Origin: Micromonospora parva
GTDB lineage: Bacteria; Actinomycetota; Actinomycetes; Mycobacteriales; Micromonosporaceae
Reading direction: 5' to 3'
Length of the DNA stretch: 64,000 bases
Assembly (NCBI RefSeq): GCF_000718515.1
Contig: NZ_JNZS01000011.1
Location: forward strand, 62,001 to 126,000
A program made the position numbers and the translations under genes. Below, piece after piece: positions 27,286 to 55,608 of the stretch. The notes beneath the pieces are model-generated. The model made no database searches and had not been told where the DNA came from. It saw only the letters and a program-made list of their open reading frames with translations. The number at the start of each line of letters is the position of its first letter. Position 1 is the stretch's first letter.

Positions 27286-27302
27286 CTTAGCCATCGTTCA
27301 GG
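27286..27302. promoter_or_regulatory. Acyl-CoA regulon operator, site 1 (hbd)
   Basis: CTTAGCCATCGTTCAGG, whose complement is CCTGAACGATGGCTAAG, matches the motif shared by six promoters in this window. It lies 10 nt upstream of a possible -10 box TAGGGT (27312-27317), over the -35 position, ahead of the 3-hydroxybutyryl-CoA dehydrogenase gene. Confidence 0.7.
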
Positions 27303-27353
27303 CTCGCCGACTAGGGTGCAGGCAGGCACTCAATCGCAGCGAGGGAGAAGCAG

Positions 27354-28202
27354 ATGGCGGGTCGACTCGCGGTCGTCGGGGCCGGGCTGATGGGCTCCGG
27401 CATCGCCCAGGTGGCGGCGCAGGCGGGCTGGCAGGTGACGCTGCGCGACCTGGACGACGCGGCCACCACCCGGGGTCTGGGCGGCATTCGGAAGTCACTG
27501 GAGAAGTTCGCCGAGAAGGGCAAGATCGAGGCGTCCGAGGTCGAGGCGACGCTGGCGCGGATCACGCCGACCACCGACCTGGAGGCGGCGGCGGACGCGG
27601 ACATCGTGGTCGAGGCGGTCTTCGAGCGCCTGGAGATCAAGCACGAGGTGTTCCGTGCCCTGGACAAGATCTGCAAGTCCGACGCGGTGCTCGCCACCAA
27701 CACCTCGGCCATCCCGGTCACCCAGATCGCTGCGGTGACCGAGCGGCCCGAGGCGGTCGTCGGCACCCACTTCTTCTCCCCGGTGCCGATGATGCAGCTC
27801 TGCGAGCTGGTTCGCGGCTACAAGACCACCGACGCCACCCTGGACACCGCGCGGGCCTTCGCCGAGGAGATCGGCAAGACGGTCGTGGTGGTCAACCGGG
27901 ACATCGCCGGTTTCGTCACCACCCGGCTGATCTCCGCCCTGGTGATGGAGGCGGTCAAGCTGGTCGAGTCCGGCGTGGTGTCGGCGGAGGACCTGGACAC
28001 CGCCTGCCGGCTGGGCTTCGGGCACGCCATGGGTCCGCTGGCCACCACCGACCTGACCGGCGTGGACGTGCTGCTGCACGCCTCGAAGAACATCTACACC
28101 GACACGGCCGACGAGAAGTTCTTCCCGCCGGAGCTGCTCCAGCGGATGGTCACCGCCGGTGACCTGGGCCGCAAGACCGGCAAGGGCTTCTACACGTACT
28201 GA
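27354..28202 (+). CDS. 3-hydroxybutyryl-CoA dehydrogenase
   Basis: The 282-residue NAD(P)-dependent enzyme reduces acetoacetyl-CoA to 3-hydroxybutyryl-CoA or works in reverse. The Rossmann motif is VVGAGLMGSGIAQ (residues 6-18). NTSAIPVT (~123), the catalytic GTHFFSPVPMM (~139, His) and GFGHAMGPLA near 227 are typical of the Hbd/PaaH/FadB2 group. GAGGGAGAAG precedes the ATG. The upstream operator places it in the same regulon as Ccr and ethylmalonyl-CoA mutase, supporting a role in the ethylmalonyl-CoA route. Confidence 0.93.
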   Translation: MAGRLAVVGAGLMGSGIAQVAAQAGWQVTLRDLDDAATTRGLGGIRKSLEKFAEKGKIEASEVEATLARITPTTDLEAAADADIVVEAVFERLEIKHEVFRALDKICKSDAVLATNTSAIPVTQIAAVTERPEAVVGTHFFSPVPMMQLCELVRGYKTTDATLDTARAFAEEIGKTVVVVNRDIAGFVTTRLISALVMEAVKLVESGVVSAEDLDTACRLGFGHAMGPLATTDLTGVDVLLHASKNIYTDTADEKFFPPELLQRMVTAGDLGRKTGKGFYTY

Positions 28203-28210
28203 GGTGTGGC

Positions 28211-28236
28211 GGCCGGGGCGGTCAACCGCCCCGGCC
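28211..28236. terminator. Bidirectional hairpin between hbd and the ABC permease
   Basis: GGCCGGGGCGGT (28211-28222) pairs with 28225-28236 in the 40-bp gap between two convergent genes. Confidence 0.7.
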
Positions 28237-28242
28237 GGCCGC

Positions 28243-29088
28243 TCAGCCGTCGCGCTTGGTGGTCCAGCGGAAGGTGGTCAGGCAGACCACCAGGCCGATC
28301 ACGCACCACAGGGCGAGCACCAGCGCCACCCGGCCCAGCTCGAACGACCCGCCCGGCTCCTGGGCGCCGAAGCTTTCCGGCAGGAAGACCGCCCGCAGCC
28401 CCTGGCACATCCACTTGAGCGGGAACAGCGCCGCCACCTGCTGCATCCAGGTGGGCAGGTCGGTGAAGACGAAGAACACCCCGGAGATGAACTGAAGGAT
28501 CAGCGAGACCGGGGTGACCACCGCCGAGCCGCTGCGGGCGGTGCGGGCCAGCGACGAGATGGCGATGCCGGACAGGGTGCACGCGGTCACCCCGAGCACG
28601 GCGACCCAGCCGAAGGTAAGCCACTTCCCGGCGGTGCCCGGCAGGTCGAGGTCGAACAGCGCCACCGCGAAGGCCAGCAGCAGCGCCGTCTCGGCGATGC
28701 CGATCACGATCACCATGATCACCTTGCCGGCGAACCAGACCCACTTCGGCATCGGCGTGCCCCGGTAGCGCTTGAGCACGCCCCGATCCCGTTCGACGGG
28801 GATCCAGATACCGAGGTTCTGGAAGCTCACCGTCATCAGGCCGGTCGCGATCATGCCGGTGATGAAGTACTGGGTGAACTTCACTCCGCCGCCGATCGTC
28901 CCGTCGAAGATCGACGCGAAGATCAGGATCATGATGACCGGGAACCCCATCGTGAAGACGACGGACTCCCGGCTGCGCAGGAACTGGGTGATCTCCAGTC
29001 GGCCCTGGCGCAGGGCGAGCGCGCCGGCGCCCGGCCGCCGGCCGCGGGTCGCGGTGACCGGCGTCGCCGGCTTCGTCGTGGTCGTCAT
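28243..29088 (-). CDS. ABC-2 type transporter permease
   Basis: The 281-residue protein has six hydrophobic segments and the ABC-2 permease layout, with a first helix after a basic N-terminus (ESVVFTMGFPVIMILIF) and YFITGMIATGLMTVSFQNLG mid-protein. It starts within the stop codon of the ATPase gene (ATGA overlap), so the two form one exporter operon. Substrate unknown; drug or lipid export is typical of this type. Confidence 0.9.
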   Translation of the reverse strand: MTTTTKPATPVTATRGRRPGAGALALRQGRLEITQFLRSRESVVFTMGFPVIMILIFASIFDGTIGGGVKFTQYFITGMIATGLMTVSFQNLGIWIPVERDRGVLKRYRGTPMPKWVWFAGKVIMVIVIGIAETALLLAFAVALFDLDLPGTAGKWLTFGWVAVLGVTACTLSGIAISSLARTARSGSAVVTPVSLILQFISGVFFVFTDLPTWMQQVAALFPLKWMCQGLRAVFLPESFGAQEPGGSFELGRVALVLALWCVIGLVVCLTTFRWTTKRDG

Positions 29089-29936
29089 CGCGAGTGTCCG
29101 ATCATCGTGAGGTAGACGTCCTCCAGGGTCGGCCGGGTCACCGTGAGACCGGGGACCTCACCGCCGTGGCGCGCGGCGAGGTCGGCCACGAAGGCCGTCG
29201 GCGTCGCGGTCTGCGCGCTCTCCACTGTCCCTTCCGGGGTACGCCAGGAGACCGTGGCGAGGGCCTCCTGTCGATTGCCCAGCCGGTTGGGAGCGGCCAC
29301 CTCCACCAGTCGACCGCCGGCGATCACGCCGACCCGGTCGGCGAGGGCCTCGGCCTCGTCCAGGTAGTGGGTGGTGAGCACGATGGTGGTGCCGGCGGCC
29401 GCGAGGTCGCGGATCAGCTCCCAGAACTCGCGGCGGGCCTCCGGGTCGAAGCCGGTGGTCGGCTCGTCGAGGAAGAGCAGCTCCGGTCGGCCGATGATGC
29501 CCAGCGCCACGTCCAGGCGGCGCTTCTGCCCGCCGGAGAGGGTGTGCGTCCGGGCCTTCGCCTTGCCGGCCAACCCGACCCGCTCGATCACCTTCGCCGG
29601 GTCGTCGGCGTCGGCATAGAAGCCGGAGAAGTGCCGAATCACCTCGGCCACTGTCAGCTCGTCGAACTCGCCGGTGCCCTGGAGCACGATGCCGACCCGG
29701 GAGCGCCAGTCGATGTCCGGGTGGGCCGGGTCCGCGCCGAGCACGGAGACCTCGCCGGCATCCCGGTGCCGGTAACCCTCCAGGATCTCCACGGTGGTGG
29801 TCTTGCCGGCGCCGTTCGGGCCGAGCAACGCGAACACCTCGCCGCGGTGCACGTCGAGATCCACGCCCGCCACCGCTACGTTGTCGCCGTACGCCTTGCG
29901 CAGCCCACGTACGGAGATGGCCAGCTCGTCATCCAT
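29085..29936 (-). CDS. ABC transporter ATP-binding protein
   Basis: The 283-residue ATPase of a DrrA-like exporter has Walker A GPNGAGKTT (~41-49), signature LSGGQKRR (~137), Walker B LLFLDEPT (~157) and H-loop TTHYLDEA (~192), plus a C-terminal domain typical of the group. The start MDDELAISVRGL at 29936 is preferred over a 26-residue longer frame. No clear Shine-Dalgarno is seen. It heads the two-gene operon with the permease, divergent from ethylmalonyl-CoA mutase. Confidence 0.92.
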   Translation of the reverse strand: MDDELAISVRGLRKAYGDNVAVAGVDLDVHRGEVFALLGPNGAGKTTTVEILEGYRHRDAGEVSVLGADPAHPDIDWRSRVGIVLQGTGEFDELTVAEVIRHFSGFYADADDPAKVIERVGLAGKAKARTHTLSGGQKRRLDVALGIIGRPELLFLDEPTTGFDPEARREFWELIRDLAAAGTTIVLTTHYLDEAEALADRVGVIAGGRLVEVAAPNRLGNRQEALATVSWRTPEGTVESAQTATPTAFVADLAARHGGEVPGLTVTRPTLEDVYLTMIGHSR

Positions 29937-30062
29937 GCCGTCCAGTGTGCGTCCTGACCCGGCCCGCATGGTGCCCGGGGTGTGGCGGTCCGCGCCACTG
30001 CGGGAACTTGACACCCGGACGTCCCCGACATGGACCTGTGTGGTTTTGCACAGCCCTTTTTA

Positions 30063-30081
30063 CTGAACGGTAACTTAGACT
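30063..30081. promoter_or_regulatory. Operator site 2 overlapping the ethylmalonyl-CoA mutase -10 box
   Basis: CTGAACGGTAACTTAG (30063-30078) matches the shared acyl-CoA regulon motif. Its last three bases are part of TAGACT (30076-30081), a -10 box 6 nt before the ATG at 30088. No Shine-Dalgarno exists, so the mRNA is probably leaderless. A protein bound here would block polymerase. Confidence 0.75.
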
Positions 30082-30087
30082 CCGGCC

Positions 30088-32094
30088 ATGGATGAGACGG
30101 CATTCCCGGGGCGGCTGCCCGAGCGGGACCGCCCGTGGGTGATGCGCACCTACGCCGGCCACTCGTCGGCAGCGGCGACCAACGCCCTCTTCCGCCGCAA
30201 CCTGGCGAAGGGGCAGACCGGGCTCTCGGTCGCCTTCGACCTGCCCACCCAGACCGGGTACGACCCGGACCACGAACTCGCCGCCGGTGAGGTCGGACGG
30301 GTCGGTGTGCCGGTGGCCCACCTCGGCGACATGCGGGCGCTCTTCGACGGTCTCCCGCTCGCCGACACGAACACCTCGATGACCATCAACGCCCCGGCGA
30401 TGTGGCTGCTCGCCCTGTACGGCACCGTCGGGCTGGAGCAGGGCGCCGACCTGACCCGCTGCGCCGGCACCACCCAGAACGACATCATCAAGGAGTACCT
30501 GTCCCGGGGCACCTACATCTTTCCGCCGGCGGCGTCGCTGCGGCTCACCGCCGACGTGGTGGCGTACACGCTGCGCGAGATGCCCCGGTGGAACCCGGTC
30601 AACATCTGCTCGTACCACCTGCAGGAGGCCGGCGCCACGCCCGTGCAGGAGGTCGGCTTCGCGCTGGCCACCGCGGTCGCCGTGCTCGACGCGGTCCGCG
30701 ACTCCGGCCAGGTGCCCGCCGAACGGATGGGCGACGTGGTCCAGCGGATCTCGTTCTTCGTCAACGCCGGGGTGCGCTTCGTCGAGGAGATCGCCAAGAT
30801 GCGCGCGTTCGGCGTGCTCTGGGACGAGATCACCCGGGACCGGTACGGGGTCACCGACGCCCGACAGCGGCGGTTCCGCTACGGCGTGCAGGTCAACTCG
30901 CTCGGCCTCACCGAGGCGCAGCCGGAGAACAACATCCAGCGCATCGTGCTGGAGATGCTCGGCGTGACGATGTCCCGTGACGCCCGGGCCCGGGCGGTCC
31001 AACTGCCCGCCTGGAACGAGGCGCTCGGCCTGCCCCGCCCCTGGGACCAGCAGTGGTCGCTGCGGATGCAGCAGGTCCTGGCGTACGAGTCGGATCTGCT
31101 CGAATATCCCGACCTCTTCGCCGGCTCGCACGTGATGACCGCGCTGGTCGACGACATCGTCACCGGGGCGCGGACCGAGCTGGACAAGGTGCTGGAACTG
31201 GGCGGTGTCGTCGCCGCCGTGGAGACCGGCTACCTCAAGAGCGCGCTGGTCGCCTCGCTGGCCGACCGTCGTCGCCGGATGGAGTCCGGTGCCGATGTGG
31301 TGGTCGGGGTCAACAGGTACACCGAGACCGAACCCTCGCCGCTGACCGCCGCCGGTGCGGGCGCCGTCGAACAGGTCGATCCCGCCGTCGAGGCGGCCGC
31401 CGTGGATGGCGTACGCCGGTGGCGGGCCGACCGGGAGGCGGCAGTGGTCGACGCGGCGCTGACCCGGCTCCGCGCGGACGCCGCGACCACCGCCAACCTG
31501 ATGCCGGCGACAGTGGAGTGCGTGCGGGCCGGGGTGACCACCGGCGAGTGGGCCGGCGCGCTGCGCCAGGTCTTCGGCGAGTACCGGGCACCGACCGGCC
31601 TGGCCGGTGCGACCGGTGGCGGCGGGGAGCCGGGTCTCGCGGCGGTCCGTGAGCGGGTCACCGCCACCGCCCGCGAGCTGGGCAGCGGCCGGCTGCGGCT
31701 GTTGGTCGGCAAGCCCGGCCTGGACGGGCACTCCAACGGTGCGGAACAGATCGCGGTACGTGCCCGCGACGCCGGCTTCGAGGTGGTCTACCAGGGCATC
31801 CGGTTGACCGCGGGGCAGATCGTGGCCGCCGCGGTGGAGGAGGACGTCGACCTGGTCGGGCTCTCCGTGCTCTCCGGGTCGCACCTGGCCGCCGTGCCCG
31901 CGGTGCTCGACGGGCTGCGCGCCGCCGGACGGGCGGACCTGCCGGTGGTGGTGGGCGGCATCATCCCGGCCGGTGACGCGGACACCCTGCGGGCGGCCGG
32001 GGTCGCCCGGGTCTTCACGCCGAAGGACTTCGCCCTCACCGGCATCATCGACGACCTGGTGACGGTCATCCGTCGCGCCAACGACCTGCCCTGA
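30088..32094 (+). CDS. meaA: Ethylmalonyl-CoA mutase (MeaA type)
   Basis: The 668-residue adenosylcobalamin enzyme rearranges ethylmalonyl-CoA to methylsuccinyl-CoA. It has an N-terminal TIM barrel (TYAGHSSAAATNALFR, FDLPTQTGYDPDH, NDIIKEYLSRGTYIFPP) and a C-terminal B12 domain with GKPGLDGHSNGAEQ (~553-566, the DxHxxG cobalt-ligand motif), GLSVLSGSH and VVGGIIP. A single-chain mutase of this length with TYAGHSS rather than RQYAGF-type sequence is typical of MeaA/Ecm rather than methylmalonyl-CoA mutase. It is preceded by the shared operator and a leaderless-type promoter. Ccr, epimerase and MeaB lie 20 kb to the right. Confidence 0.92.
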   Translation: MDETAFPGRLPERDRPWVMRTYAGHSSAAATNALFRRNLAKGQTGLSVAFDLPTQTGYDPDHELAAGEVGRVGVPVAHLGDMRALFDGLPLADTNTSMTINAPAMWLLALYGTVGLEQGADLTRCAGTTQNDIIKEYLSRGTYIFPPAASLRLTADVVAYTLREMPRWNPVNICSYHLQEAGATPVQEVGFALATAVAVLDAVRDSGQVPAERMGDVVQRISFFVNAGVRFVEEIAKMRAFGVLWDEITRDRYGVTDARQRRFRYGVQVNSLGLTEAQPENNIQRIVLEMLGVTMSRDARARAVQLPAWNEALGLPRPWDQQWSLRMQQVLAYESDLLEYPDLFAGSHVMTALVDDIVTGARTELDKVLELGGVVAAVETGYLKSALVASLADRRRRMESGADVVVGVNRYTETEPSPLTAAGAGAVEQVDPAVEAAAVDGVRRWRADREAAVVDAALTRLRADAATTANLMPATVECVRAGVTTGEWAGALRQVFGEYRAPTGLAGATGGGGEPGLAAVRERVTATARELGSGRLRLLVGKPGLDGHSNGAEQIAVRARDAGFEVVYQGIRLTAGQIVAAAVEEDVDLVGLSVLSGSHLAAVPAVLDGLRAAGRADLPVVVGGIIPAGDADTLRAAGVARVFTPKDFALTGIIDDLVTVIRRANDLP

Positions 32095-32124
32095 TCACTC
32101 GTCACCCCGGCGGGCCGGCGCGGG

Positions 32125-32421
32125 TCAGCGGCCGGCGTACGTCATGCAGTCGGCCATGTCGTTGTCCGGGCCGACCCTGATCGACGACGCGTGGCACTCC
32201 AACTGCTCGTTGTGCCGGCAGTCGGCGCGCTGGCAGGCGCCGACCTGCGCGATCAGGCTCTCCACACCGCCCTGCACCGGCGACTCGACGAAGGTGTGGC
32301 AGTGCGCGTGATCCATGCTGCCGATCGTGATCGCGAAGGCGTGGCAGTCACCTGACCTGTTGTACGCGCAGGCGGCGACCACGCATTCCTGGACTCGGGG
32401 CATCTCCAACGCTGCGGTCAT
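32125..32421 (-). CDS. DUF1540 cysteine-rich protein (two domains)
   Basis: The 98-residue protein consists of two copies of a ~40-residue cysteine-rich unit. The first has Cys at ~13, 18, 26 and 41, and a similar set follows in the second half (CQRADC, HNEQLEC, ADC). This fits DUF1540, presumed to bind metal. GAGGAGGT precedes the ATG. It converges on the mutase gene; role unknown. Confidence 0.85.
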   Translation of the reverse strand: MTAALEMPRVQECVVAACAYNRSGDCHAFAITIGSMDHAHCHTFVESPVQGGVESLIAQVGACQRADCRHNEQLECHASSIRVGPDNDMADCMTYAGR

Positions 32422-32500
32422 GCCGACCTCCTCTAGGCTCCTGCCCCGATACTAGGCTTTTGTCGGCCTGACGAACCCCGGTACGGCGAGCCGCCCGCCG

Positions 32501-33118
32501 TCAGACGCGGAAGCCGGCGGCACGGGCAGCCTCCCGTTCACGACGTCGTTCGCCACGTCGGCGGATGAACCAGAAGATGAAGAAGGCCAGGCCGACCAGG
32601 AAGACGAGCACCAGCACCGGCAGGATGATCGCCACCAGGGAGACCACCACGCTGGTGGCGTCCTCGGCGGTGCTGGCCACCGGGGCGCCGAAACCGGCGG
32701 TGGCCGCGTTGACGACGGGCCGGGCCGCCGACTTGAGCAGGTGCACGCCCAGCGCCAGCAGTACGCCCGTGACGACCGGCACCCACTGGTGGGACGAGAA
32801 GAAGCTGCCCGGGTCGCTGACCGTCACCGTCTCCGACGAGGAGCCGGCACCGAAGGCCAGGCCACCGGCGGTGGGTCGGACCACTGTCTGCACCACGTCG
32901 TTGATGTGGTCGACCACTGGCACCTTGTCCGCCACCACCTCCACGGCGAGCAGTACGGCCATGATGACGATGACCCAGCCGTTGCCGAGCCAGGTCCAGC
33001 CGCTGGGCAGGTCGATCAGGTCGGTGTAGCGGCCGAGCAGACCGAGGATGAGCAGGGGTATGTAGGCGTTCAGCCCCGCCGAGGCGGCGAGACCGGTGCC
33101 GGTGAGGACTTCGAACAC
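32501..33118 (-). CDS. DUF4126 membrane protein
   Basis: The 205-residue protein has about four to five membrane helices and a very basic C-terminal tail ([16 protein letters not shown]). The N-terminus with [21 protein letters not shown] matches DUF4126. Function is unknown. It starts with GTG and diverges from nucS over ~71 bp. GATGCT lies 6 nt upstream instead of a Shine-Dalgarno. Confidence 0.8.
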
Positions 33119-33189
33119 GATCTCAGCATCGCATCGACGCGCCAGTGCCGCTCGCTGGCGACCGGTGGGTGCTCGGCTACCCTCGTCGG

Positions 33190-33849
33190 GTGCGGTTGGT
33201 CATTGCGAAATGCTCGGTGGACTACGTCGGACGGCTCTCGGCTCACCTGCCGCTGGCCACCCGGTTGCTGATGGTGAAGGCGGACGGGTCGGTGTCCATT
33301 CACGCCGACGACCGGGCGTACAAGCCGTTGAACTGGATGAGCCCACCCTGCCGGCTGGAGGAGGCCCCCGGGGTGTGGCGGGTCGTCAACAAGGCCGGCG
33401 AGGAGCTGCGGATCACCCTGGAGGAGATCTTCCAGGACACCTCGTACGAGTTGGGGGTGGATCCGGGTCTGCGCAAGGACGGGGTGGAGGCGCACCTGCA
33501 GGAGTTGCTGGCCGCCAACCCGAGTGCCCTGGGTGAGGGGTTCACCCTGGTCCGCCGCGAGTACATGACGGCGATCGGCCCGGTGGACCTGCTCTGCCGG
33601 GACGCCAACTCCGGCTCGGTGGCCGTCGAGGTCAAGCGGCGCGGCGACATCGACGGGGTGGAGCAGTTGACCCGCTATCTGGAGTTGATGAACCGCGACC
33701 CGCTGCTCAGCCCGGTCGTCGGGGTCTTCGCCGCTCAGGAGATCAAGCCGCAGGCCCGGGTGCTCGCCACCGACCGGGGCATCCGCTGTGTGGTGGTGGA
33801 CTACGACAAGCTGCGCGGCATCGTGAAGGACGAGCTGACCCTCTTCTGA
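33190..33849 (+). CDS. nucS: Endonuclease NucS (mismatch-specific, EndoMS)
   Basis: The 219-residue nuclease cuts DNA at mismatches and provides the non-canonical mismatch repair of actinobacteria that lack MutS/MutL. The N-terminal DNA-binding domain reads [15 protein letters not shown] with [20 protein letters not shown]. The C-terminal PD-(D/E)xK nuclease has GPVDLLCRD and VAVEVKRRG (~134-155). The C-terminal tail DELTLF resembles a beta-clamp-binding end. The GTG at 33190 is chosen by homology to the known N-terminus; TACCCT lies 6 nt upstream and no Shine-Dalgarno exists. Confidence 0.95.
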
Positions 33850-33861
33850 CCCCCGGCGCCT

Positions 33862-34682: not shown

Positions 34683-34708
34683 TTAACGCAATGTACCGCC
34701 GCGACCAC

Positions 34709-38187: not shown

Positions 38188-38204
38188 CTTAGCGGCCGTT
38201 CAGT
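38188..38204. promoter_or_regulatory. Operator site 3 (double 3-hydroxyacyl-CoA dehydrogenase)
   Basis: CTTAGCGGCCGTTCAGT, complement ACTGAACGGCCGCTAAG, lies 31 nt before the GTG of the fused dehydrogenase and matches the shared acyl-CoA regulon motif. The Shine-Dalgarno GGGGAGG lies between it and the start. Confidence 0.7.
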
Positions 38205-38234: not shown

Positions 38235-40025
38235 GTGGCGCGCGAGTTCAGCACCGTAGGCGTGGTCGGGCTGGGCACCATGGGTGCCGGCATCGTCGAG
38301 GTCTTCGCCCGCAACGGCATCGACGTGGTGGCCGTGGAGATCTCCGCACCCGCCCTGGAACGCGGCCGGGCCACCCTGAAGGGCTCCACCGACCGGGCGG
38401 TCGCCAAGGGCAAGCTCGCCGAGGCGGACCGCGACGCCCTGCACGAGCGGGTGCACTTCGCGGTCGGGCTGGACGCGCTGCACTCCGTCGACCTGGTCAT
38501 CGAGGCGGTGCCCGAGCACCTGGACCTCAAGCAGCGGATCTTCGCGGAGCTGGACCGGGTCTGCCGCCCCGACACGATCCTCGCCACCAACACCTCGTCG
38601 CTGAGCGTCACCGAGATCTCGGTGGCCACCAGCCGACCCAACCAGGTCATCGGCATCCACTTCTTCAACCCGGCCCCGGTGATGAAGCTGGTCGAGGTGG
38701 TCCGCACCGTCGTCACCGCGCCCGAGGTGGTCGCCGACGTGGAGGCGCTCTGCGCCCGGCTCGGCAAGGTCGACGTCACCATCAACGACCGGGCCGGCTT
38801 CATCGCCAACGCGCTGCTCTTCGGCTACCTCAACCACGCCGTCGGCATGTTCGAGTCGCACTACGCGACCCGGGAGGACATCGACGCCGCGATGAAGCTC
38901 GGCTGCGGCCTGCCGATGGGCCCGCTGGCGCTGATGGACCTCATCGGTCTGGACACCGCGTACGAGATCCTCGACACCATGTACCGGCGCGGCGGGCGGG
39001 ACCGCCGGCACGCCCCGGTGCCGCTGCTCAAGCAGATGGTGACGGCGGGACTGCTCGGCCGGAAGTCCGGCCGGGGCTTCTACACCTACGAGCGGCCCGG
39101 CTCCCCGGTGGTCGTACCGGATGAGGCGACGCCGCTGGCCACGGAGTCGGCGCTCGCCGACGGGGCTCGCGCCATCGCGAAGGTGGGCGTGGTGGGTTCC
39201 GGGACGATGGCCACCGGGATCATCGATGTGTTCGCGAAGGCCGGCTACGAGGTCGTCTCGGTCACCCGCGGCGCGGAGAAGTCCGCGAAGGTCTGTGAGG
39301 CGGTGAAGACCTCGCTGAACAAGGGCGTGGTGCGCGGCAAGCTCGCCGAGGCCGACCGGGACGCCGCGCTGGGCCGGATCAGCTGGTCCGCCACGCTCGA
39401 CCACCTCGCCGACGTCGACCTGGTGGTCGAGGCGGTCGTCGAGGAGTTGAGCGTCAAGAAGGCCCTCTTCGCCAGCCTCGACGAGATCTGCAAGCCGGGC
39501 GTCGTGCTGGCCACCACCACCTCGTCGCTGCCGGTGATCGACGTGGCGATGGCCACCCAGCGGCCGGCCGACGTGGTGGGGCTGCACTTCTTCAATCCGG
39601 CGCCGGTCATGCCGCTGGTCGAGGTCGTCCGCACCATCCGCACCTCCCCGGAGGCCACCGCCACCGCCCGCGCCGTCTGCGCCGCCCTCGGCAAGACCGG
39701 CGTGGTCTGCGGCGACCGGTCCGGGTTCATCGTCAACGCGCTGCTCTTCCCGTACCTGAACGACGCGGTGAAGATGCTGGAGGCCAGCTACTCCACGGCC
39801 GACGACATCGACCACGCCATGAAGCTGGGCTGCGGCTACCCGATGGGCCCGTTCGAGCTGCTGGACGTGGTGGGGCTGGACGTCTCGCTGGCCATCCAGC
39901 GCGAGCTGTACCTGGAACTGCGCGAGCCGGGCTTCGCGCCCGCGCCGCTGCTGGAGCACCTGGTCACCGCCGGCTATCTGGGCCGCAAGACCCGCCGCGG
40001 CTTCCGCGACCACTCACACCGCTGA
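38235..40025 (+). CDS. Tandem-duplicated 3-hydroxyacyl-CoA dehydrogenase (two fused copies)
   Basis: The 596-residue protein is two complete 3-hydroxyacyl-CoA dehydrogenases end to end. Copy 1 covers ~1-285 (GVVGLGTMGAGIVEVF, NTSSLSVTEIS, GIHFFNPAPVMKLVE, LGCGLPMGPLALMD, GRKSGRGFYTY). Copy 2 covers ~305-596 (GVVGSGTMATGIIDVF, TTSSLPVIDVA, GLHFFNPAPVMPLVE, LGCGYPMGPFELLD, GRKTRRGFRDH). Both keep the Rossmann Gly motif and the catalytic His, so both could be active. Natural enzymes of this class form two-domain homodimers, so fusion may make an internal dimer. The GTG start has GGGGAGG upstream. The shared operator links it to the ethylmalonyl-CoA genes. Confidence 0.92.
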   Translation: MAREFSTVGVVGLGTMGAGIVEVFARNGIDVVAVEISAPALERGRATLKGSTDRAVAKGKLAEADRDALHERVHFAVGLDALHSVDLVIEAVPEHLDLKQRIFAELDRVCRPDTILATNTSSLSVTEISVATSRPNQVIGIHFFNPAPVMKLVEVVRTVVTAPEVVADVEALCARLGKVDVTINDRAGFIANALLFGYLNHAVGMFESHYATREDIDAAMKLGCGLPMGPLALMDLIGLDTAYEILDTMYRRGGRDRRHAPVPLLKQMVTAGLLGRKSGRGFYTYERPGSPVVVPDEATPLATESALADGARAIAKVGVVGSGTMATGIIDVFAKAGYEVVSVTRGAEKSAKVCEAVKTSLNKGVVRGKLAEADRDAALGRISWSATLDHLADVDLVVEAVVEELSVKKALFASLDEICKPGVVLATTTSSLPVIDVAMATQRPADVVGLHFFNPAPVMPLVEVVRTIRTSPEATATARAVCAALGKTGVVCGDRSGFIVNALLFPYLNDAVKMLEASYSTADDIDHAMKLGCGYPMGPFELLDVVGLDVSLAIQRELYLELREPGFAPAPLLEHLVTAGYLGRKTRRGFRDHSHR

Positions 40026-43293: not shown

Positions 43294-44574
43294 TCAGCGG
43301 CGTTGCTGGCGGGGCAGCACCACCTCGCGCAGGATCAGTTGCAGGGCGGCCACCGTGGGGATGGCGATCAGCGCGCCCACCACGCCCAGCAGTGACACCC
43401 CGAGCAGCGCGGCCAGCAGGGCGGCCACCTCGTTGACCTCCACCGAGCGCCGCATCACCTTCGGGTAGATGAGGTAGTTCTCCACCTGCTGGTAGATGAG
43501 GAAGAAGACCGCGCAGGCGATGCCGGTGGGCAGGTCGGCGGCGAAGCCGACCAGGCTCACGATCACCGCGCCGAGGGTGGCGCCGATCTGCGGGATCAGG
43601 TCGGTCACCGCGACGACCACGGCCAGCGCGAACGGGTACGGCAGGTCGACGATCAGCGCGAAGACGAAGGTGGTCGCGCCGGCCAGCACCGCGATGCTCA
43701 GCGCGCCGACCATGTAGGAGCCGACCTTTGCCAAAATTTCGTCACCGATCAGCTGCACCCGTTCCCGGCGCGACCGGGGCACCAACGAGTAGCCCAGCGA
43801 GCGCAACCGGTCGAAATAGGCCAGGAAGTAGATCGTCAGCACCAGCACGGTCAGCGTCCGGAACACCGTGCCGAAGATCAGTTGTGCGCCGCCCAGCACC
43901 CCGCCGAGCGCCCGCCCGACCGTCTGGGCGTTGGCGGCGTTCTGCACCCGCTCCACCACGTCGTACCGCTCCACCAGGTCATTGACCGTCGGGTTGCGGC
44001 GCAGCTCGTCGAGCAGGCTCGGGATCTGATCGATGAACTGCCCCGACTGGGTGACGATCGGCGGGACCAGCGCCACCACGCCGCCGCAGAGCAGCAACAC
44101 CACTGTCAACGCCACCGCGGCCACCGCCAGGCCGTGCGGCACACCCCAGCGGCCCAGCCGGACCACCGCCGGGTTGAGACCGACAGCGAGGAAGAGCGCG
44201 ATCACCACCAGCACCAGGATGCCGCCGGCATTGCGAATCCCCAGATAGAGGGTGTACGCCAGCAGCACGCCCAGCGCGCCGGTGAAACCGATCAGGAAAC
44301 TGCTGCGGCGCAGTGGCCGCCCCGGCGTGCCGAACTTTCCGGACGGGACCGCGGGCGGCTCGTCCGGGTCGATCCCCGGGGCGGGAACCGGCACCGGCGG
44401 TGGCGTCTGCACCGGCTGCGGACTTGCCGCCCGCTGTGCTTGCGCTGCCTGCGGAGTTTCCGCTGGGTGCGGTGTTTCCGCCGGCTCGGGTGTTTGCGCC
44501 GGCTGCGGTGTTTGCGCTGGCGGGGGACCGGCGGTCACGTCCGGGTCGTCGCCAGCCGGGTCGTGCTGTGGCAC
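43294..44574 (-). CDS. AI-2E family (PerM-like) membrane transporter
   Basis: The 426-residue protein has a ~75-residue N-terminal tail made of Pro/Gln/Thr/Glu repeats (TPQPAQTPEPAETPHPAETP-like), then about eight membrane helices. The family wording is SFLIGFTGALGVLLAYTLY, DQIPSLLDELRRNP, DLIPQIGATLGAV (~342) and YQQVENYLIYPKVM (~372). AI-2E family proteins export small molecules or ions; the name does not prove AI-2 transport. The disordered tail is an unusual addition. Similar codon use to neighbours. Confidence 0.88.
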   Translation of the reverse strand: MPQHDPAGDDPDVTAGPPPAQTPQPAQTPEPAETPHPAETPQAAQAQRAASPQPVQTPPPVPVPAPGIDPDEPPAVPSGKFGTPGRPLRRSSFLIGFTGALGVLLAYTLYLGIRNAGGILVLVVIALFLAVGLNPAVVRLGRWGVPHGLAVAAVALTVVLLLCGGVVALVPPIVTQSGQFIDQIPSLLDELRRNPTVNDLVERYDVVERVQNAANAQTVGRALGGVLGGAQLIFGTVFRTLTVLVLTIYFLAYFDRLRSLGYSLVPRSRRERVQLIGDEILAKVGSYMVGALSIAVLAGATTFVFALIVDLPYPFALAVVVAVTDLIPQIGATLGAVIVSLVGFAADLPTGIACAVFFLIYQQVENYLIYPKVMRRSVEVNEVAALLAALLGVSLLGVVGALIAIPTVAALQLILREVVLPRQQRR

Positions 44575-48244: not shown

Positions 48245-48284
48245 GGCGCGAGGTGGCACCGGTTACCCGGTGTCACCTCGCGCC
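48245..48284 (-). terminator. Hairpin between the two coiled-coil genes
   Basis: GGCGCGAGGTGGCACCGG (48245-48262) pairs with 48267-48284 with one mismatch and a 4-nt loop. It begins 28 nt past the stop codon of the FilP-like gene. Confidence 0.75.
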
Positions 48285-48311
48285 GTCGATGCCCCGACCT
48301 GACGCCTCGCG

Positions 48312-49574: not shown

Positions 49575-49730
49575 TGGGACATACTGGCAGACGCCCCAGG
49601 GTGCTTCGCAAGAGCGGTGGGAAGCTTTCGTGCCCTCTTTACATGGTCAACTCCTGGTGTCGACGAGGTCGGACCAATCGGCGATCTTGGCAGGTCCCGG
49701 CCTGTCGGACGCCACGCAGCGTGACGCGGA

Positions 49731-49761
49731 AAAGGGCCCCGGGGTTACCCCGAGGCCCTTT
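49731..49761 (-). terminator. Terminator after ccr
   Basis: AAAGGGCC... (from 49731) pairs with ...GGCCCTTT (to 49761) with one mismatch and a TTA-centred loop. It lies 90 nt beyond the ccr stop codon on the reverse strand, and also 157 nt before the FilP-like start. The rest of the 277-bp gap shows no gene. Confidence 0.75.
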
Positions 49762-49851
49762 GTTCGATCCGGGTGGGTTATCCGCTAATGAGGGCGGAAG
49801 AACAATGAGCGATCATCGCAATGGTCATCCCGCGTTCCCCCGTCCGGCCGG

Positions 49852-51306
49852 TCAGTGACCGCGGAACCGGTTGATCGCGTCCTCGTGCCGGGCCCGCAGC
49901 TCCCCGTCGCGTACGCCCAGCCCGTCGGCGGGCGCGAGGCAGCGCACGCCGACCTTGCCCTGGTGGGCGTTGCGGTGCACCTCGTACGCGGCCTGGCCGG
50001 TCTGCTCCAACGGGTAGGTGCGGGACACCGTCGGGTGCACCTTGCCGAGCGCCACCAGGCGGTTGGCCTGCCACGCCTCGTGGTAGTTGGCGAAGTGGCT
50101 GCCGACGATCCGCTTGAGGTGCATCCACAGGTAGCGGTTGTCGTACTGGTGCTGGAAGCCGCTCGTGGAGGCGCAGGTGACGATGGTCCCACCGCGTCGG
50201 GCCACGTAGACGCTGGCGCCGAACGTCTCCCGTCCCGGGTGCTCGAACACGATGTCCGGGTCCTCGCCGCCGGTCAGCTCGCGGATCCGCTCGCCGAAGC
50301 GCCGCCACTCGTCCGGGTCCTGGGTCTCCTCGTCCTTCCAGAAGCGGAAGCCCTCAGCGGCCCGGTCGATGACGAGATCCGCGCCCATCCGGCGGCACAG
50401 CTCGGCCTTCTCCGGTGAGGACACCACGCAGACCGGGATCGCGCCGCCGTTGAGCGCCATCTGCGTGGCGTACCCGCCGAGGCCGCCGGAGGCGCCCCAG
50501 ATCAGCACCACGTCGCCCTGTTTCATGTTGGCGCCGTGGTGCGAGACGAGCTGCCGGTACGCGGTGGAGTTGACCAGCCCGGGGCTGGCCGCCTCCTCCC
50601 AGCTCAGGTGCCGTGGCTTGGGCATCAGCTGGTTGGCCTTGACGATGGCCAGCTCGGCGAGCCCGCCGAAGTTGGTCTCGAAGCCCCAGATCCGCTGCTG
50701 CGGGTCGAGCATGGTGTCGTCGTGGCCGGCCGCGTCCTCCAGCTCGACGGAGAGGCAGTGCGCGACCACCTCGTCGCCGGGCGCCCAGCGGGTCACCCCG
50801 GGGCCGGTGCGCAGCACCACGCCGGCCGCGTCCGAGCCGACCACGTGGTACGGCAGGTCGTGCCGGCGGGTCAGCTCGGAGACCCGGCCGTAGCGCTCCA
50901 GGAACCTGAAGGTGGACACCGGCTCGAAGATGCTTGTCCACACCGTGTTGTAGTTGATCGCGCTGGCCATCACCGCGATCAGCGCCTCACCCGGCGCCAG
51001 CTGCGGTGTCGGCACCTCCTGCACGTGCAGTGCCTTGCGCGGGTCCTTGTCCCGGGTGGCCATGCCGTCGAACATCCGGGCTTCCTCGGCGCGGACGACC
51101 ACGCCCCGGTAGCTCTCCGGTACGGGCAGTCCGGCGACGCCGGCGAGTTCGCGGTCCGGATCGTTCGATTCCTCCGCCGCCATGATCGCTTCGAGGATGT
51201 CCTGCACGGTGACCTCCGGTTCGTCCGCACCCGCACGGGCCCGGGTGCTGCCATCGTCGGCGCCGGTGGGCACGACCGCCATGTCGGCATTCGACACATC
51301 CGGCAC
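49852..51306 (-). CDS. ccr: Crotonyl-CoA carboxylase/reductase
   Basis: The 484-residue medium-chain reductase converts crotonyl-CoA, CO2 and NADPH to ethylmalonyl-CoA, the key step of the ethylmalonyl-CoA pathway. Residues reported to hold CO2 in Kitasatospora Ccr are all present in context: Asn in INYNTVW, Phe-Glu in GFETNFGG and His in VGSHFANY. The nucleotide-binding loop is IWGASGGLGGYATQ. The GTG at 51306 is chosen because AGGAG (51319-51315) lies 8 nt upstream; the open frame to 51423 crosses the operator. It is flanked by the operator at 51335 and the terminator at 49731. Confidence 0.95.
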   Translation of the reverse strand: MPDVSNADMAVVPTGADDGSTRARAGADEPEVTVQDILEAIMAAEESNDPDRELAGVAGLPVPESYRGVVVRAEEARMFDGMATRDKDPRKALHVQEVPTPQLAPGEALIAVMASAINYNTVWTSIFEPVSTFRFLERYGRVSELTRRHDLPYHVVGSDAAGVVLRTGPGVTRWAPGDEVVAHCLSVELEDAAGHDDTMLDPQQRIWGFETNFGGLAELAIVKANQLMPKPRHLSWEEAASPGLVNSTAYRQLVSHHGANMKQGDVVLIWGASGGLGGYATQMALNGGAIPVCVVSSPEKAELCRRMGADLVIDRAAEGFRFWKDEETQDPDEWRRFGERIRELTGGEDPDIVFEHPGRETFGASVYVARRGGTIVTCASTSGFQHQYDNRYLWMHLKRIVGSHFANYHEAWQANRLVALGKVHPTVSRTYPLEQTGQAAYEVHRNAHQGKVGVRCLAPADGLGVRDGELRARHEDAINRFRGH

Positions 51307-51334
51307 CGGTCGCGCTCCTGTGGGGCCGGACGTT

Positions 51335-51351
51335 ACTGAACGGTAGCTAGG
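51335..51351. promoter_or_regulatory. Operator site 4 (ccr)
   Basis: ACTGAACGGTAGCTAGG matches the shared acyl-CoA regulon motif. It lies 28 nt upstream of the ccr start on the reverse strand and overlaps the likely -10 region. The remainder of the 366-bp gap (51307-51672) holds a family B palindrome and GC-rich sequence without a gene. Confidence 0.7.
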
Positions 51352-51520
51352 CCGGGAAGTCCTCTGTGAAAAACTGCATCCACCGATGCGTGAAGGTGTC
51401 CGGCCACCCCGCCAACCGCGCACTGACGTGCGCGCGCAGCCCCCGCGATCCCCAGCCCGCCCCGCCCCGACCCGCGCCCGCCCCGGCCCGCGCCCGCCCC
51501 CCGGCCCGCCGACTCGTCAA

Positions 51521-51592
51521 GATCGTGCTCGATCCTTGATGTAGTGGTGTCACGGCGGTGGGAGACCACTAGATCCCTGTTGCAGCGCGATC
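51521..51592. repeat. Intergenic palindrome, family B, copy 2 (degenerate)
   Basis: The left half GATCGTGCTCGATCCTTGAT (from 51521) with GTAGTGGTGTC is nearly identical to the left half at 43111. The right half (51562-51592, GAGACCACTAG...GCGCGATC) is only partly complementary, so this copy has decayed. Confidence 0.75.
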
Positions 51593-51672
51593 ATGGCGTG
51601 CGGTGTCGCCGTGTCGCACGTGGTGCGCAGCAGTGCGGCGCGGGGTGGCAGGGGGCGGGGCGGGGCGCAGGG

Positions 51673-52146
51673 CTAGTGGGCTGCGGCGGGCTCGACCAGT
51701 TCGACGAGGACGCCGCCGGCGTCCTTCGGGTGGACGAAGTTGATCCGGCTGTCCGCAGTGCCGCGCCTCGGGGCGTCGTAGAGAAGCCGCATGCCGCGCT
51801 CGCGCAGTGCCGCGCAGGCCGCGTCGATGTCCACCACGGTGTACGCGACCTGCTGCACGCCCGGCCCGTTGCGGTCCAGGAACTTCGCGATCGTCGACTC
51901 CGGGGTGAGCGGGGCGAGCAACTGCACGCAGCCGCCCTCGGTGGTCGGCCCGACGGCCAGCATCGCTTCCCGGACGCCCTGCTCGGCGTTGGTCTCCACG
52001 TGTACGCAGCGCATCCCGAACGTCCGCTGGTAGAAGTCGATCGCGGCGTCCAGGTCGGCCACGGCTATCCCGACGTGGTCAATCTTGCGAAGCCCGATGT
52101 CTGTGACGTAGTCCGCACCGGGCTCGACGGGGGAGTTCTCTGCCAT
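51673..52146 (-). CDS. Ethylmalonyl-CoA/methylmalonyl-CoA epimerase
   Basis: The 157-residue vicinal-oxygen-chelate protein has the metal-binding DHVGIAVADL (~17-26, His), a central QLLAP strand, QVAYTVVDID (~90) and a terminal LVELVEP carrying the metal-ligand Glu. It epimerises (2R)- and (2S)-methyl- or ethylmalonyl-CoA before the mutase. The ATG at 52146 is used; on the reverse strand CAGACT lies 6 nt upstream with no Shine-Dalgarno, so it is probably leaderless. It diverges from the thiolase gene across a shared operator. Confidence 0.92.
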   Translation of the reverse strand: MAENSPVEPGADYVTDIGLRKIDHVGIAVADLDAAIDFYQRTFGMRCVHVETNAEQGVREAMLAVGPTTEGGCVQLLAPLTPESTIAKFLDRNGPGVQQVAYTVVDIDAACAALRERGMRLLYDAPRRGTADSRINFVHPKDAGGVLVELVEPAAAH

Positions 52147-52159
52147 GGCGCTAGTCTGG

Positions 52160-52175
52160 CCGAACAATCGTTAAG
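52160..52175. promoter_or_regulatory. Operator site 5 (epimerase / thiolase divergent promoters)
   Basis: CCGAACAATCGTTAAG matches the shared motif with three mismatches. It lies immediately upstream of the epimerase -10 box and 33 nt before the thiolase ATG, so one site could control both genes. Confidence 0.6.
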
Positions 52176-52208
52176 GCGTACAGCTCGGCACCCCCCTCGG
52201 AGGCAGGC

Positions 52209-53393
52209 ATGGCTTCGGTGATCGTCAGCGGCGCGCGGACCCCGATGGGCCGGCTGCTGGGCAACCTCAAGGACCTTCCCGCCACCAAGCTCGGCGGGAT
52301 CGCCATCAAGGCGGCGCTGGAGCGGGCCGGCGTCAGCCCGGACCAGGTCCAGTACGTGATCATGGGGCAGGTGTTGCAGGCCGGCGCCGGTCAGATCCCG
52401 GCCCGGCAGGCGGCGGTCGAGGCCGGCGTACCGATGTCGGTGCCGGCGCTGACCATCAACAAGGTCTGCCTCTCCGGCCTGGACGCGATCGCCCTGGCCG
52501 ACCAGCTGATCCGGGCTGGCGAGTTCGACATCGTGGTGGCCGGCGGCATGGAGTCGATGACCAACGCCCCGCACCTGCTGATGGGCCAGCGCACCGGCTA
52601 CAAGTACGGCGACGTGGTGGTCAAGGACCACATGGCGCACGACGGGCTCAGCGACGCCTGGGACTGCTGCTCGATGGGCGAGTCGACCGAGCGGCTCGGC
52701 GTCAAGCACGGCATCTCCCGCACGGAGCAGGACGCCTTCGCCGCCGCCAGCCACCAGCGGGCCGCCGCCGCGCAGAAGAACGGCCACTTCGCCGACGAGA
52801 TCACCCCGGTGGTCATCCCGCAGCGCAAGGGTGACCCGCTGGTGATCAGCGAGGACGAGGGCATCCGCCCGGACACCACCGTCGAGTCGCTGGCCAAGCT
52901 GCGCCCCGCCTTCGCGAAGGACGGCACCATCACCGCGGGCAGCTCGTCGCCGATCTCCGACGGCGCCGCCGCGGTGCTCGTCATGAGCAAGGCCAAGGCG
53001 AAGGAGCTGGGGCTGACCTGGCTGGCCGAGATCGGCGCGCACGGCAACGTGGCGGGCCCGGACAACTCCCTGCACTCGCAGCCGTCCAACGCGATCAACC
53101 ACGCCCTGAAGAAGGGCGGCCTGAGCGTCGCGGACCTGGACCTCATCGAGATCAACGAGGCGTTCGCCCAGGTCGGCATCCAGTCCACCCGGGACCTCGG
53201 GATCAGCCCGGACAAGGTGAACGTCAACGGTGGCGCGATCGCGCTCGGCCACCCGATCGGCATGTCCGGCGCGCGTCTCGTCCTCACCCTCGCCCTGGAG
53301 CTGAAGCGGCGCGGTGGCGGCACCGGCGCGGCGGCGCTCTGCGGCGGCGGTGGGCAGGGCGACGCGCTGATCATCCACGTGCCGGGCCAGTGA
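52209..53393 (+). CDS. Acetyl-CoA acetyltransferase (thiolase)
   Basis: The 394-residue enzyme condenses two acetyl-CoA to acetoacetyl-CoA or cleaves it. The nucleophilic Cys is in NKVCLSGLD (~85-93), the His in [14 protein letters not shown] (~343-356) and the second Cys in [11 protein letters not shown] (~378-388). GGAGGCAGG precedes the ATG. Its stop overlaps meaB (GTGA). The operator upstream and the neighbours suggest it feeds the ethylmalonyl-CoA pathway. Confidence 0.95.
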
Positions 53394-54394
53394 GCGGAGC
53401 GGCCGAGCCCGTCCCGGCGGCGGGCAGCACGTCGGTGCGCCGTAGTCGGGACGTACCGCTGCTGGTCGAGCGGGCCCGCGCGGGTGACCCCCGCGCGGTG
53501 GCCCGCCTGATCACCCTGGTGGAGAACGGCGACGAGCTGCTCCCGGCGATCGCCGCGGCGCTGGCGCCGTACGCGGGGCAGGCGCAGGTGGTCGGGCTGA
53601 CCGGTTCACCCGGGGTGGGCAAGTCGACCACCACGAACGAGCTGGTCCGGGCGCTGCGGGCGCAGGGGCACCGGGTTGGTGTGCTGGCGGTCGACCCGTC
53701 CAGCCCGTTCACGGGTGGGGCGATCCTCGGTGACCGGGTGCGGATGCAGGACCACGCCACCGATCCGGGCGTCTACATCCGGTCGATGTCCAGTCGGGGA
53801 CACCTCGGCGGGTTGGCAGCGGCGACGCCGCAGGCGGTCCGGGTGCTGGAGGGCGCCGGCTGCGACGTGGTGCTGGTGGAGACCGTCGGCGTCGGGCAGG
53901 CCGAGGTGGAGGTCGCCTCGCTGGCCGACACGACGCTGGTGCTGCTCGCACCGGGGATGGGTGACGCGATCCAGGCGGTCAAGGCCGGCATCCTGGAGAT
54001 CGCCGACGTGTTCGTGGTCAACAAGGCGGACCGGGACGGCGTCGACGCCACCGTCCGGGACATCCAGGGCATGATCGCTCTCGGTGAGCGCGGCCCGGGG
54101 CAGTGGCGGCCGCAGGTGGTCCGGTCGGTCGCCGCGCGCGGCGAGGGCATCGACGACATCGCCGCCGCCATCGACAAGCACCGGGGCTGGCTGGTCGAGC
54201 ACGGCGAGCTGCGCCGCCGCCAGGAGGCGCGGGCCGCCGCCGAGATCGAGGCGATCGCGCTCGGCACCCTCCGCGCCCGGATCGGGTCCCTTCGCGACGG
54301 TACGCAGTTGTCCACTCTCGCCGCCCGGGTGGCCGAGGGCGCGACCGACCCGTACACGGCGGCGGACGAGTTGCTCGCCCAGCTCGCCCGCTGA
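53390..54394 (+). CDS. meaB: Methylmalonyl-CoA mutase-associated GTPase MeaB
   Basis: The 334-residue G3E GTPase loads and protects adenosylcobalamin on acyl-CoA mutases. The P-loop is [13 protein letters not shown] (~67-79), with [17 protein letters not shown] (~100), [14 protein letters not shown] (~163) and NKAD (~211). The GTG start lies inside the thiolase stop codon, so the two are cotranscribed. Its likely clients are the ethylmalonyl- and isobutyryl-CoA mutases encoded at 30.1 and 55.7 kb. Confidence 0.95.
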
Positions 54395-54542
54395 CCGGCA
54401 GGCGCGCCGGCACCGAGCGCCCGGACGCGAAGCTGGCTCCGGTTTTAGTAGGCTCGCGGCGCGTGGCCGGCGGTCGGCCGCCGCGCGGCGGGCTGACGAG
54501 ACGGTCGGTCCACATCGCACCGGGACCAGGGGAGATGTGATC

Positions 54543-54962
54543 ATGACGGACGCGGTGGAGAACGCCGGTGCGGTGTCGCCCGCGACGGGCGCGGCCCGGG
54601 GTGCCACGTCGGTTTCCGACGAGGTCGTGGAGAAGATCGCCGGTGCGGCCGCTCGTACCGTGCCCGGTGTCGCCGATCTCGGTGGTGACGTGTCCCGGTT
54701 CTTCAACAGCGTGTTGGACAAGGTCGGCCTGGACCAGGTGGGCGACGCTCGGCGGGGCGTGTCGGCCGACGTGAAGGGCGGCTCCGTCGTCATCAACGTG
54801 GTCCTGGTGATCGACGCCGGGCACGTCGTGACCGACGTGACCGAGGCGGTGCGGGCCGCGGTGATCGAGGCGGTGGAGAAGTACGGCCTCACTGTCACCC
54901 AGGTCAACGTCACTGTGGACGACATCGAGCTGAACCAGCCCGGGGCGACTGCCGGGGCCTGA
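54543..54962 (+). CDS. Asp23/Gls24 family protein (copy 1)
   Basis: The 139-residue protein has the family core VSDEVVEKIAGAAARTVPGVADLGG (~24-48 in parts), RRGVSADVKGGSVVINVVLV and a C-terminal YGLTVTQVNVTVDDIEL. Asp23 proteins are associated with the envelope and alkaline or cell-wall stress. GGGGAGATGTG lies before the ATG. It is very similar to the next gene, so the pair arose by tandem duplication. The 148-bp gap from meaB suggests its own promoter. Confidence 0.88.
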   Translation: MTDAVENAGAVSPATGAARGATSVSDEVVEKIAGAAARTVPGVADLGGDVSRFFNSVLDKVGLDQVGDARRGVSADVKGGSVVINVVLVIDAGHVVTDVTEAVRAAVIEAVEKYGLTVTQVNVTVDDIELNQPGATAGA

Positions 54963-55124
54963 GGCGTACCTGCCCGGCGGCCGGTGACGGCTGGTGGGCC
55001 GTCCGTTGACCATCCACCGGGGACAGCCCGGGGCCGCACCGTCGCAGTAGGCTCGCACCGCCCACCGTCGTCGGAGGGCAGGACGTGCCCCCAGACGCGG
55101 TGGTGCGAGGAGCAGGGAGCGACT

Positions 55125-55538
55125 GTGGACCTGGAAGCAACGCAGAAGCTGACCAGGGCGTCGGTGCCGGCCGGTGGCACGACCCAGGTCGCGGACGAGG
55201 TGATCGAGAAGATCGCCGTCGCGGCTGCCCGCGCGGTGCCCGGCGTGGCCGACCTGGGCGGGGACGTGGCCCGGTTCTTCAACGCGGTTCTCGACCGGGT
55301 CGGGCTGGACCAGGTGGGTGACGCCCGGCGGGGTTGCTCGGCCCATGTGACAGGGGACGCCGCCGTGGTCAACCTGGTGTTGGTGATCGAGGCAGGTCGG
55401 CCGGTGCCGGAGATCACCGGTCAGGTACGCGCCCAGGTGACCGAGGCGGTCGAGGCGTACGGGCTGCGGGTGGACGAGGTCAACATCCGGGTCGACGACG
55501 TGGCGATGGGCGGGTCCGTGGGGTCGCCGACGGTCTGA
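55125..55538 (+). CDS. Asp23/Gls24 family protein (copy 2)
   Basis: The 137-residue paralogue of the preceding gene shares ADEVIEKIAVAAARAVPGVA, GGDVARFFNAVLDRVGLDQVGDARRG and YGLRVDEVNIRVDDVAM. The GTG at 55125 is selected by GGGAG (55115-55119) 5 nt upstream; the longer frame to 54984 is not supported. A gap of 162 bp from copy 1 points to separate expression. Confidence 0.87.
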   Translation: MDLEATQKLTRASVPAGGTTQVADEVIEKIAVAAARAVPGVADLGGDVARFFNAVLDRVGLDQVGDARRGCSAHVTGDAAVVNLVLVIEAGRPVPEITGQVRAQVTEAVEAYGLRVDEVNIRVDDVAMGGSVGSPTV

Positions 55539-55591
55539 GTCGGGTTGCGGCCGTCCCGTGCGGCGGGGTGTTACTTGCCGGTACGACACGA

Positions 55592-55608
55592 CTTAGCGAT
55601 CGTTCAGG
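55592..55608. promoter_or_regulatory. Operator site 6 (icmA)
   Basis: CTTAGCGATCGTTCAGG, complement CCTGAACGATCGCTAAG, is the best match to the shared motif and nearly palindromic around GATC. It lies 9 nt upstream of a possible -10 box TACACT (55618-55623), over the -35 position. Confidence 0.75.

Follow-up and report, generated by a model that had tools for sequence, protein, structure and literature searches.

A shared palindromic operator ahead of scattered short-chain acyl-CoA genes in Micromonospora parva and an AccR/BkaR-group TetR protein as its candidate regulator

The DNA considered here (the window) is a 64,000-nucleotide stretch of Micromonospora parva, positions 62001-126000 of contig C11 of a 7.13-Mb draft genome (G000; other genomes, contigs and loci carry the letters G, C and L). 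Six short sites scattered across it, each just ahead of a gene for acyl-CoA metabolism, form, as judged by sequence comparison, a real regulon with a shared operator. We propose that these sites are most probably the operators of a TetR repressor of the AccR/BkaR group, encoded elsewhere in the genome and here called P0001, which would be released by acyl-CoAs. An earlier note on this DNA had described an ethylmalonyl-CoA and B12 regulon; the shared operator stands, but the regulon appears broader, covering short-chain acyl-CoA and branched-chain amino acid metabolism with the ethylmalonyl-CoA genes as one part of it.

Six sites precede acyl-CoA genes in the window

All six sites of the earlier note, at zero to three mismatches from their consensus, are present, five exactly where it placed them (27286, 30063, 38188, 52160 and 55592) and the ccr site 1 bp away, at 51336 and not 51335. 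They lie 9-53 bases from a start codon, within the roughly 70 bp claimed. In the list below (window coordinates), counts of relatives refer to a matrix built from the six window sites alone and run on upstream segments in other genomes, where a score of at least 14 is a pass; the ccr distance assumes a GTG start at 51306.

27286..27301, minus strand: operator CTGAACGATGGCTAAG, 52 bases 5' of hbd; 2/4 relatives score at least 14
27354..28202, plus strand: 3-hydroxybutyryl-CoA dehydrogenase (hbd), by NCBIfam and Pfam
30063..30078, plus strand: operator CTGAACGGTAACTTAG, 9 bases 5' of the mutase gene; 2/5 relatives score at least 14
30088..32094, plus strand: B12-dependent acyl-CoA mutase with fused B12 domain, meaA-like, 668 amino acids (aa), by protein family models and Protein Data Bank (PDB) sequences
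38188..38203, minus strand: operator CTGAACGGCCGCTAAG, 31 bases 5' of the fused dehydrogenase; 5/6 relatives score at least 14
38235..40025, plus strand: doubled (fused) 3-hydroxyacyl-CoA dehydrogenase, by protein family models
49852..51306, minus strand: crotonyl-CoA carboxylase/reductase (ccr), by protein family models and PDB sequences, start GTG 51306 with AGGAG ahead
51336..51351, plus strand: operator CTGAACGGTAGCTAGG, 29 bases 5' of ccr; 16/33 relatives score at least 14
51673..52146, minus strand: methylmalonyl-CoA epimerase, by protein family models, divergent from thiolase-meaB
52160..52175, plus strand: operator CCGAACAATCGTTAAG in the epimerase/thiolase gap, 13 bases from the epimerase and 33 from the thiolase start; at least 14 in 12/12 named Micromonosporaceae loci and 0/68 others
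52209..53393, plus strand: acetyl-CoA C-acyltransferase (thiolase), by protein family models
53390..54394, plus strand: MeaB-type GTPase, its start overlapping the thiolase end
55592..55607, minus strand: operator CTGAACGATCGCTAAG, 53 bases 5' of icmA; 11/11 relatives score at least 14
55661..57349, plus strand: large subunit of an IcmA-type B12-dependent mutase, by protein family models and PDB sequences

The solved relatives of the meaA-like fused mutase are chiefly methylmalonyl-CoA mutases, and ethylmalonyl-CoA is its putative substrate.

The window contains seven consensus matches, compared with a mean of 1.46 (standard deviation 1.27, maximum 5) over 100 shuffles; the seventh, at 43737, is a three-mismatch stray, and a further match stands at 22785 ahead of a LytR-type gene. 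A whole-genome scan with the consensus gave two exact and three one-mismatch places in 7.13 Mb, all five of them inside the window. At two mismatches the same scan gave 20 matches versus 5 for the reversed pattern, although it is partly circular because the consensus was derived from the same six sites.

The earlier note also had several sites overlapping -10 or -35 boxes. This is unproven; a sigma-70 scan, which covered positions 27200-30200, gave no promoter. The meaA site must nevertheless adjoin or overlap whichever promoter serves the gene, because it lies 9 bases ahead of the ATG. Directly 5' of the meaA operator, at 30036-30053, stands a terminator-like hairpin followed by T-rich CCCTTTTTAC, where 0.8 such features would be expected by chance.

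The operator is conserved ahead of target genes in relatives

Conservation in other genomes is an independent test of the sites, and they passed it. The window matrix passes icmA in 11/11 relatives, the epimerase in 17/18, the thiolase in 20/24, fadB in 5/6, the TetR gene discussed below in 18/33, ccr in 16/33, hbd in 2/4 and meaA in 2/5, which makes 91 of 134 upstream segments for these eight target genes. For the neutral neighbours meaB, murA, nucS, ALDH, scy and filP none of 67 passes; among these, 0/11 relatives have an operator ahead of meaB itself. Fisher's test on 91/134 versus 0/67 gives p = 3.9e-24, a value that is only a guide because related genomes are not independent and because the single gap between epimerase and thiolase enters the count twice. 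The test leaves out accA (5/33), the ABC pair facing meaA (2/3 and 0/3) and 347 unassigned genes, 12 of which score at least 14, at least four of them on gaps already counted for a target (L187, L297, L125 and L136). Shuffled 260-bp segments pass 14 in 2 of 3000 cases. The epimerase/thiolase gap was also scored in 80 named thiolase loci: all 12 from Micromonosporaceae (Micromonospora, Catellatospora and Actinoplanes) reach at least 14 and none of the 68 others does.

Because many relatives' ccr loci hold the site in a diverged, palindromic form, the full element could be derived as CTKAACG-NN-CGTTMAG. The near-palindromic form given in the earlier note is thereby refined to a full 16-bp palindrome, best visible in relatives. 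Whole-genome searches, here and below, were pattern scans only. Across 61 genomes of the family Micromonosporaceae, 14 contain exact copies of the palindrome (21 in total; reversed control 1). With one mismatch allowed, seven genomes picked by hand from the 61 hold 49 copies versus 2 for the reversed control, and 33 of the 49, assigned by reading, stand at putative members of the regulon: leucine-degradation accD (7), icmA (6), acyl-CoA dehydrogenases (5), ilvE (3), TetR, accA, pyruvate phosphate dikinase (PPDK) and M24 peptidase (2 each) and fadB, hmgL, zinc alcohol dehydrogenase and biotin carboxylase (1 each). The dehydrogenases among them are distant, with 29-38% identity to acdH, and three of the 33 copies run into the gene start as predicted: those at hmgL in G009, at a dehydrogenase in G036 and at accA in G046. 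Exact CTGAACGATCGTTAGG recurs 5' of accD in G000, G045, G036, G044 and G057. PaaR-type operators have an AACG-NN-CGTT core and belong to phenylacetate genes; the genes identified at the operators here are acyl-CoA and amino acid genes.

A wider set of putative targets

At E<=1e-100, ccr is present in 30 of the 61 family genomes. The regulon therefore exceeds the ethylmalonyl-CoA pathway, since ten of the 31 genomes in which ccr was not found at that threshold keep exact operators, for example before accD, TetR and icmA. Beyond the window, patterns with one or two mismatches, at which chance matches occur, gave these further sites in M. parva:

C9:202897: 23 bases 5' of the leucine-degradation carboxyltransferase
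C28:56677: 28 bases 5' of ilvE (branched-chain aminotransferase); also in G036, G045 and G011
C6:263840: 34 bases 5' of PPDK; also in G036 and G045
C1:207822: 8 bases 5' of an M24 peptidase; also in G036 and G045
C24:53915: 9 bases 5' of a zinc alcohol dehydrogenase; also in G045
C4:86781: 59 bases 5' of a biotin carboxylase; also in G011
C28:60120: 85 bases 5' of citramalate synthase; none seen in the seven genomes

Their recurrence in other genera supports these predicted sites. The earlier note had expected icmB to carry the motif, and this holds moderately: CTTAACGAACGGTAAC lies 35 bases 5' of the ATG of a stand-alone 134-aa IcmB-like gene on C37 and scores 13.5, under the cut-off of 14 yet the best among the genes for the seven B12-binding proteins of the genome and reached by only 3 of 3000 shuffled segments. 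No other B12-binding gene has a site of 13.5, the window mutase aside, whose operator lies beyond the stretch searched. A search of the genome found no isocitrate lyase.

An AccR/BkaR-group TetR protein as candidate regulator

A TetR-type regulator encoded outside the window, which the earlier note had tentatively suggested, is supported; the candidate is P0001 (G000:C9:199048-199644), a TetR gene beside leucine-degradation genes, ahead of accA, hmgL, accD and acdH. In four loci (L091, L092, L100 and L105) the operator is followed by a gene of TetR size and then accA, and Pfam reports TetR_N (PF00440) with TetR_C_24 (PF17932) in five of five proteins: those of three of these loci, P0001 and its G046 counterpart. 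P0001 has a match in 57 of the 61 family genomes, as a single strong match in G000 and most of the family; among the best 120 matches, the closest named ones are from Micromonospora, at no more than 97% identity. The operator occurs in the TetR gene's own promoter in 18 of 33 relatives from many genera and, where present, lies mostly 47-48 bases ahead of the predicted start.

The best PDB match of P0001 is 4g12 (E 3.8e-41, residues 16-197), listed in the database as Fad35R of Mycobacterium tuberculosis. Fad35R, its nearest solved relative by sequence, is the same protein as BkaR, described as a repressor of branched-chain keto-acid genes with the operator GTTA(N)T(N4)A(N)TAAC (PMC3920632). In the published passages BkaR is autoregulated, with branched-chain acyl-CoA genes adjoining and the same 16-bp palindrome layout, but its regulon comprises about 10 genes, nearly all adjacent, and it has Arg64 where the family has His. 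AccR of Streptomyces avermitilis, as described in part of PMC10933834, represses accD1A1-hmgL-fadE4 and others via GTTAA-N6-TTAAC, and methylcrotonyl-, propionyl- and acetyl-CoA are reported as its ligands in a passage of PMC8546615. In its published layout it is likewise a TetR repressor, associated with accA/accD and hmgL and with genes for acyl-CoA dehydrogenases, and its 16-bp palindrome has a TTAA-N6-TTAA core; its outer base is G where the operator here has C, and the targets named in the passage at hand include no mutases, ccr, thiolase, ilvE or PPDK. PccD of Saccharopolyspora and Mycolicibacterium is called a BkaR homolog in passages of PMC11596240 and PMC10933834. By analogy with the publications on AccR, BkaR and PccD, P0001 would be the binder, acting as a dimer and by repression, and a short-chain acyl-CoA would be the signal. 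Literature searches, confined to open-licence papers, yielded no printed description that we recognised of such a regulon in Micromonosporaceae.

Relatives outside the family and operator specificity

Relatives of P0001 were found in 20 of 24 named genomes. Outside the family, 14 of 16 TetR promoters carry GTTA-type palindromes of the same 16-bp layout (two palindromes in 12 of them), the exceptions being Rhodococcoides and Nocardioides. The layout is common to both groups; what distinguishes Micromonosporaceae is the outer pair and the inner CG. Each code is at control level in the other group: the family operator gave 5 matches versus 4 in 116 genomes outside the family (two family members removed), and the AccR-type operator GTTAAYNNNNRTTAAC gave 6 versus 5 in the 61 family genomes; the operator here, with its C-G outer pair, departs from the strict GTTAA-N6-TTAAC. 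We rejected BkaR's own operator as the window motif: its sequence differs, and in the family the AccR/BkaR-type pattern stays at the level of the control.

The recognition helix divides in the same way in the alignment, with YHHF in 34 of 34 family proteins, YRHF in 15 of 16 outsiders and YKHF in the remaining one. The family His (His57 in P0001) aligns with Arg64 of Fad35R, one of its predicted DNA-binding residues (PMC4418694, in part), and this His/Arg residue may be linked to the outer base pair. We consider it an even bet that a Micromonosporaceae ancestor changed the specificity of an AccR-type repressor (Arg to His; outer pair G-C to C-G), with a dozen or so scattered operators following and the regulon gaining B12-dependent mutases, ccr and PPDK.

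Just upstream of the thiolase, in the gap towards the epimerase, Streptomyces loci hold a palindrome, GTAAACCCTCGTTCAC, identical in 35 of 48 loci (L155-L202; for example L164:9910-9925; reversed control 0), with one variant in Streptacidiphilus; its layout is AccR-like, and it is not the strict AccR motif.

Alternative explanations

Several observations weigh against P0001 as the binder of these sites. Its own promoter holds only a degenerate site (score 6.2), none of four Micromonospora TetR promoters passes 14, and 16 of 34 family TetR promoters are without a site of at least 14 (L107-L114, L116-L120, L122, L133 and L262). The branch that bears the family clade of the regulator is very long, and the program marked it as a risk; because of this branch, and because searches were one-way only, a diverged paralog or an old duplication of the regulator is possible. 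Only some relatives have the hbd, meaA and ccr sites, and the published site of Saccharopolyspora PccD, as given in part in PMC10933834, is unlike the window palindrome. Targets were seen to keep operators where TetR promoters lack one, and in G045 an operator stands between TetR and accA instead.

One alternative idea is that operator and regulon are real but bound by another regulator, such as an ortholog of SAV7471, with the AccR-like TetR gene one target among others. SAV7471, which regulates coenzyme A metabolism in S. avermitilis, is also a TetR protein, and its site GAGAACSWWCGTTCTC (PMC10933834, in part), compared as published, shares GAAC-N4-GTTC with the window operator and differs in the outer two bases. 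The lack of a good site at the P0001 promoter fits this idea, as do single sites ahead of other regulators, a TetR gene on C3 and an HTH_67 protein in G036. We nevertheless judge it unlikely, since no regulator gene but the AccR-like TetR was seen to have the operator at a constant spacing across many genera (18/33), and its relatives in neighbouring orders bind the same 16-bp layout in the published passages. The two single sites can be described further: the TetR gene on C3 was set aside as the regulator, its weak site at C3:255484 scoring 15.8 with ACCG as one half, and at G036:C1:2574001 (L144) CTTAACTAACGTTAAG lies 8 bases 5' of an HTH_67-family gene, possibly a further regulator, in one genome.

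Less probable still, and in our view a slim chance, are two systems with similar sites, in which the AccR-like TetR would serve the leucine genes, with the mutase and ethylmalonyl-CoA genes under a second regulator. Such a division would agree with AccR targets that include no ccr, icmA or thiolase in the passage at hand and with a Streptomyces gap that has GTAAACCCTCGTTCAC in place of a strict AccR site, but the accD, TetR, ilvE, icmA and thiolase sites of the family fit one matrix made from window sites alone, and exact CTGAACGATCGTTAGG precedes accD in five genomes. That the pattern is a chance one picked by eye, as a consensus taken from the same six sites and a high genome background at two to three mismatches might suggest, is scarcely credible, contradicted as it is by conservation versus reversed-pattern controls and neutral genes.

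Neighbouring observations

Between meaB and icmA, window positions 54525-54960 and 55120-55540 are two similar small coding stretches, by eye an apparent tandem duplication. At G000:C11:33018-33052 (L022, L023) two tandem perfect palindromes CTGACCGATCGGTCAG are likely another regulator's operator.

Proposed regulation and its significance

In our preferred reading, with P0001 as the repressor, a P0001 dimer would block transcription of short-chain acyl-CoA genes by binding CTKAACG-NN-CGTTMAG at their promoters. When acyl-CoAs from the breakdown of branched-chain amino acids or fatty acids accumulate, P0001 would be released, turning on leucine degradation, the branched-chain aminotransferase, acyl-CoA dehydrogenases and the B12-dependent mutases with the epimerase, and also the thiolase, the hydroxyacyl-CoA dehydrogenases, ccr and PPDK. 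The target steps would run from transamination through the leucine pathway and acyl-CoA dehydrogenation to the mutases leading to succinyl-CoA, with the crotonyl-CoA branch, and PPDK for gluconeogenesis. The targets, as predicted from their sequences, are in keeping with a signal that comes from branched-chain amino acid breakdown and odd-chain breakdown.

In Micromonospora and Actinoplanes, where polyketide synthesis draws on the pool of short-chain acyl-CoAs, the proposal supplies a candidate regulator for that pool together with a list of its putative targets, and it would tie ccr and the mutase genes, in a genome without detectable isocitrate lyase, to branched-chain amino acid breakdown and PPDK. 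Set side by side, the family and its neighbours may show a repressor and its operators as they stood before and after a natural change; if the proposed change of specificity is true, an entire regulon would here have altered its operator code along with its regulator, in a way that can be traced.

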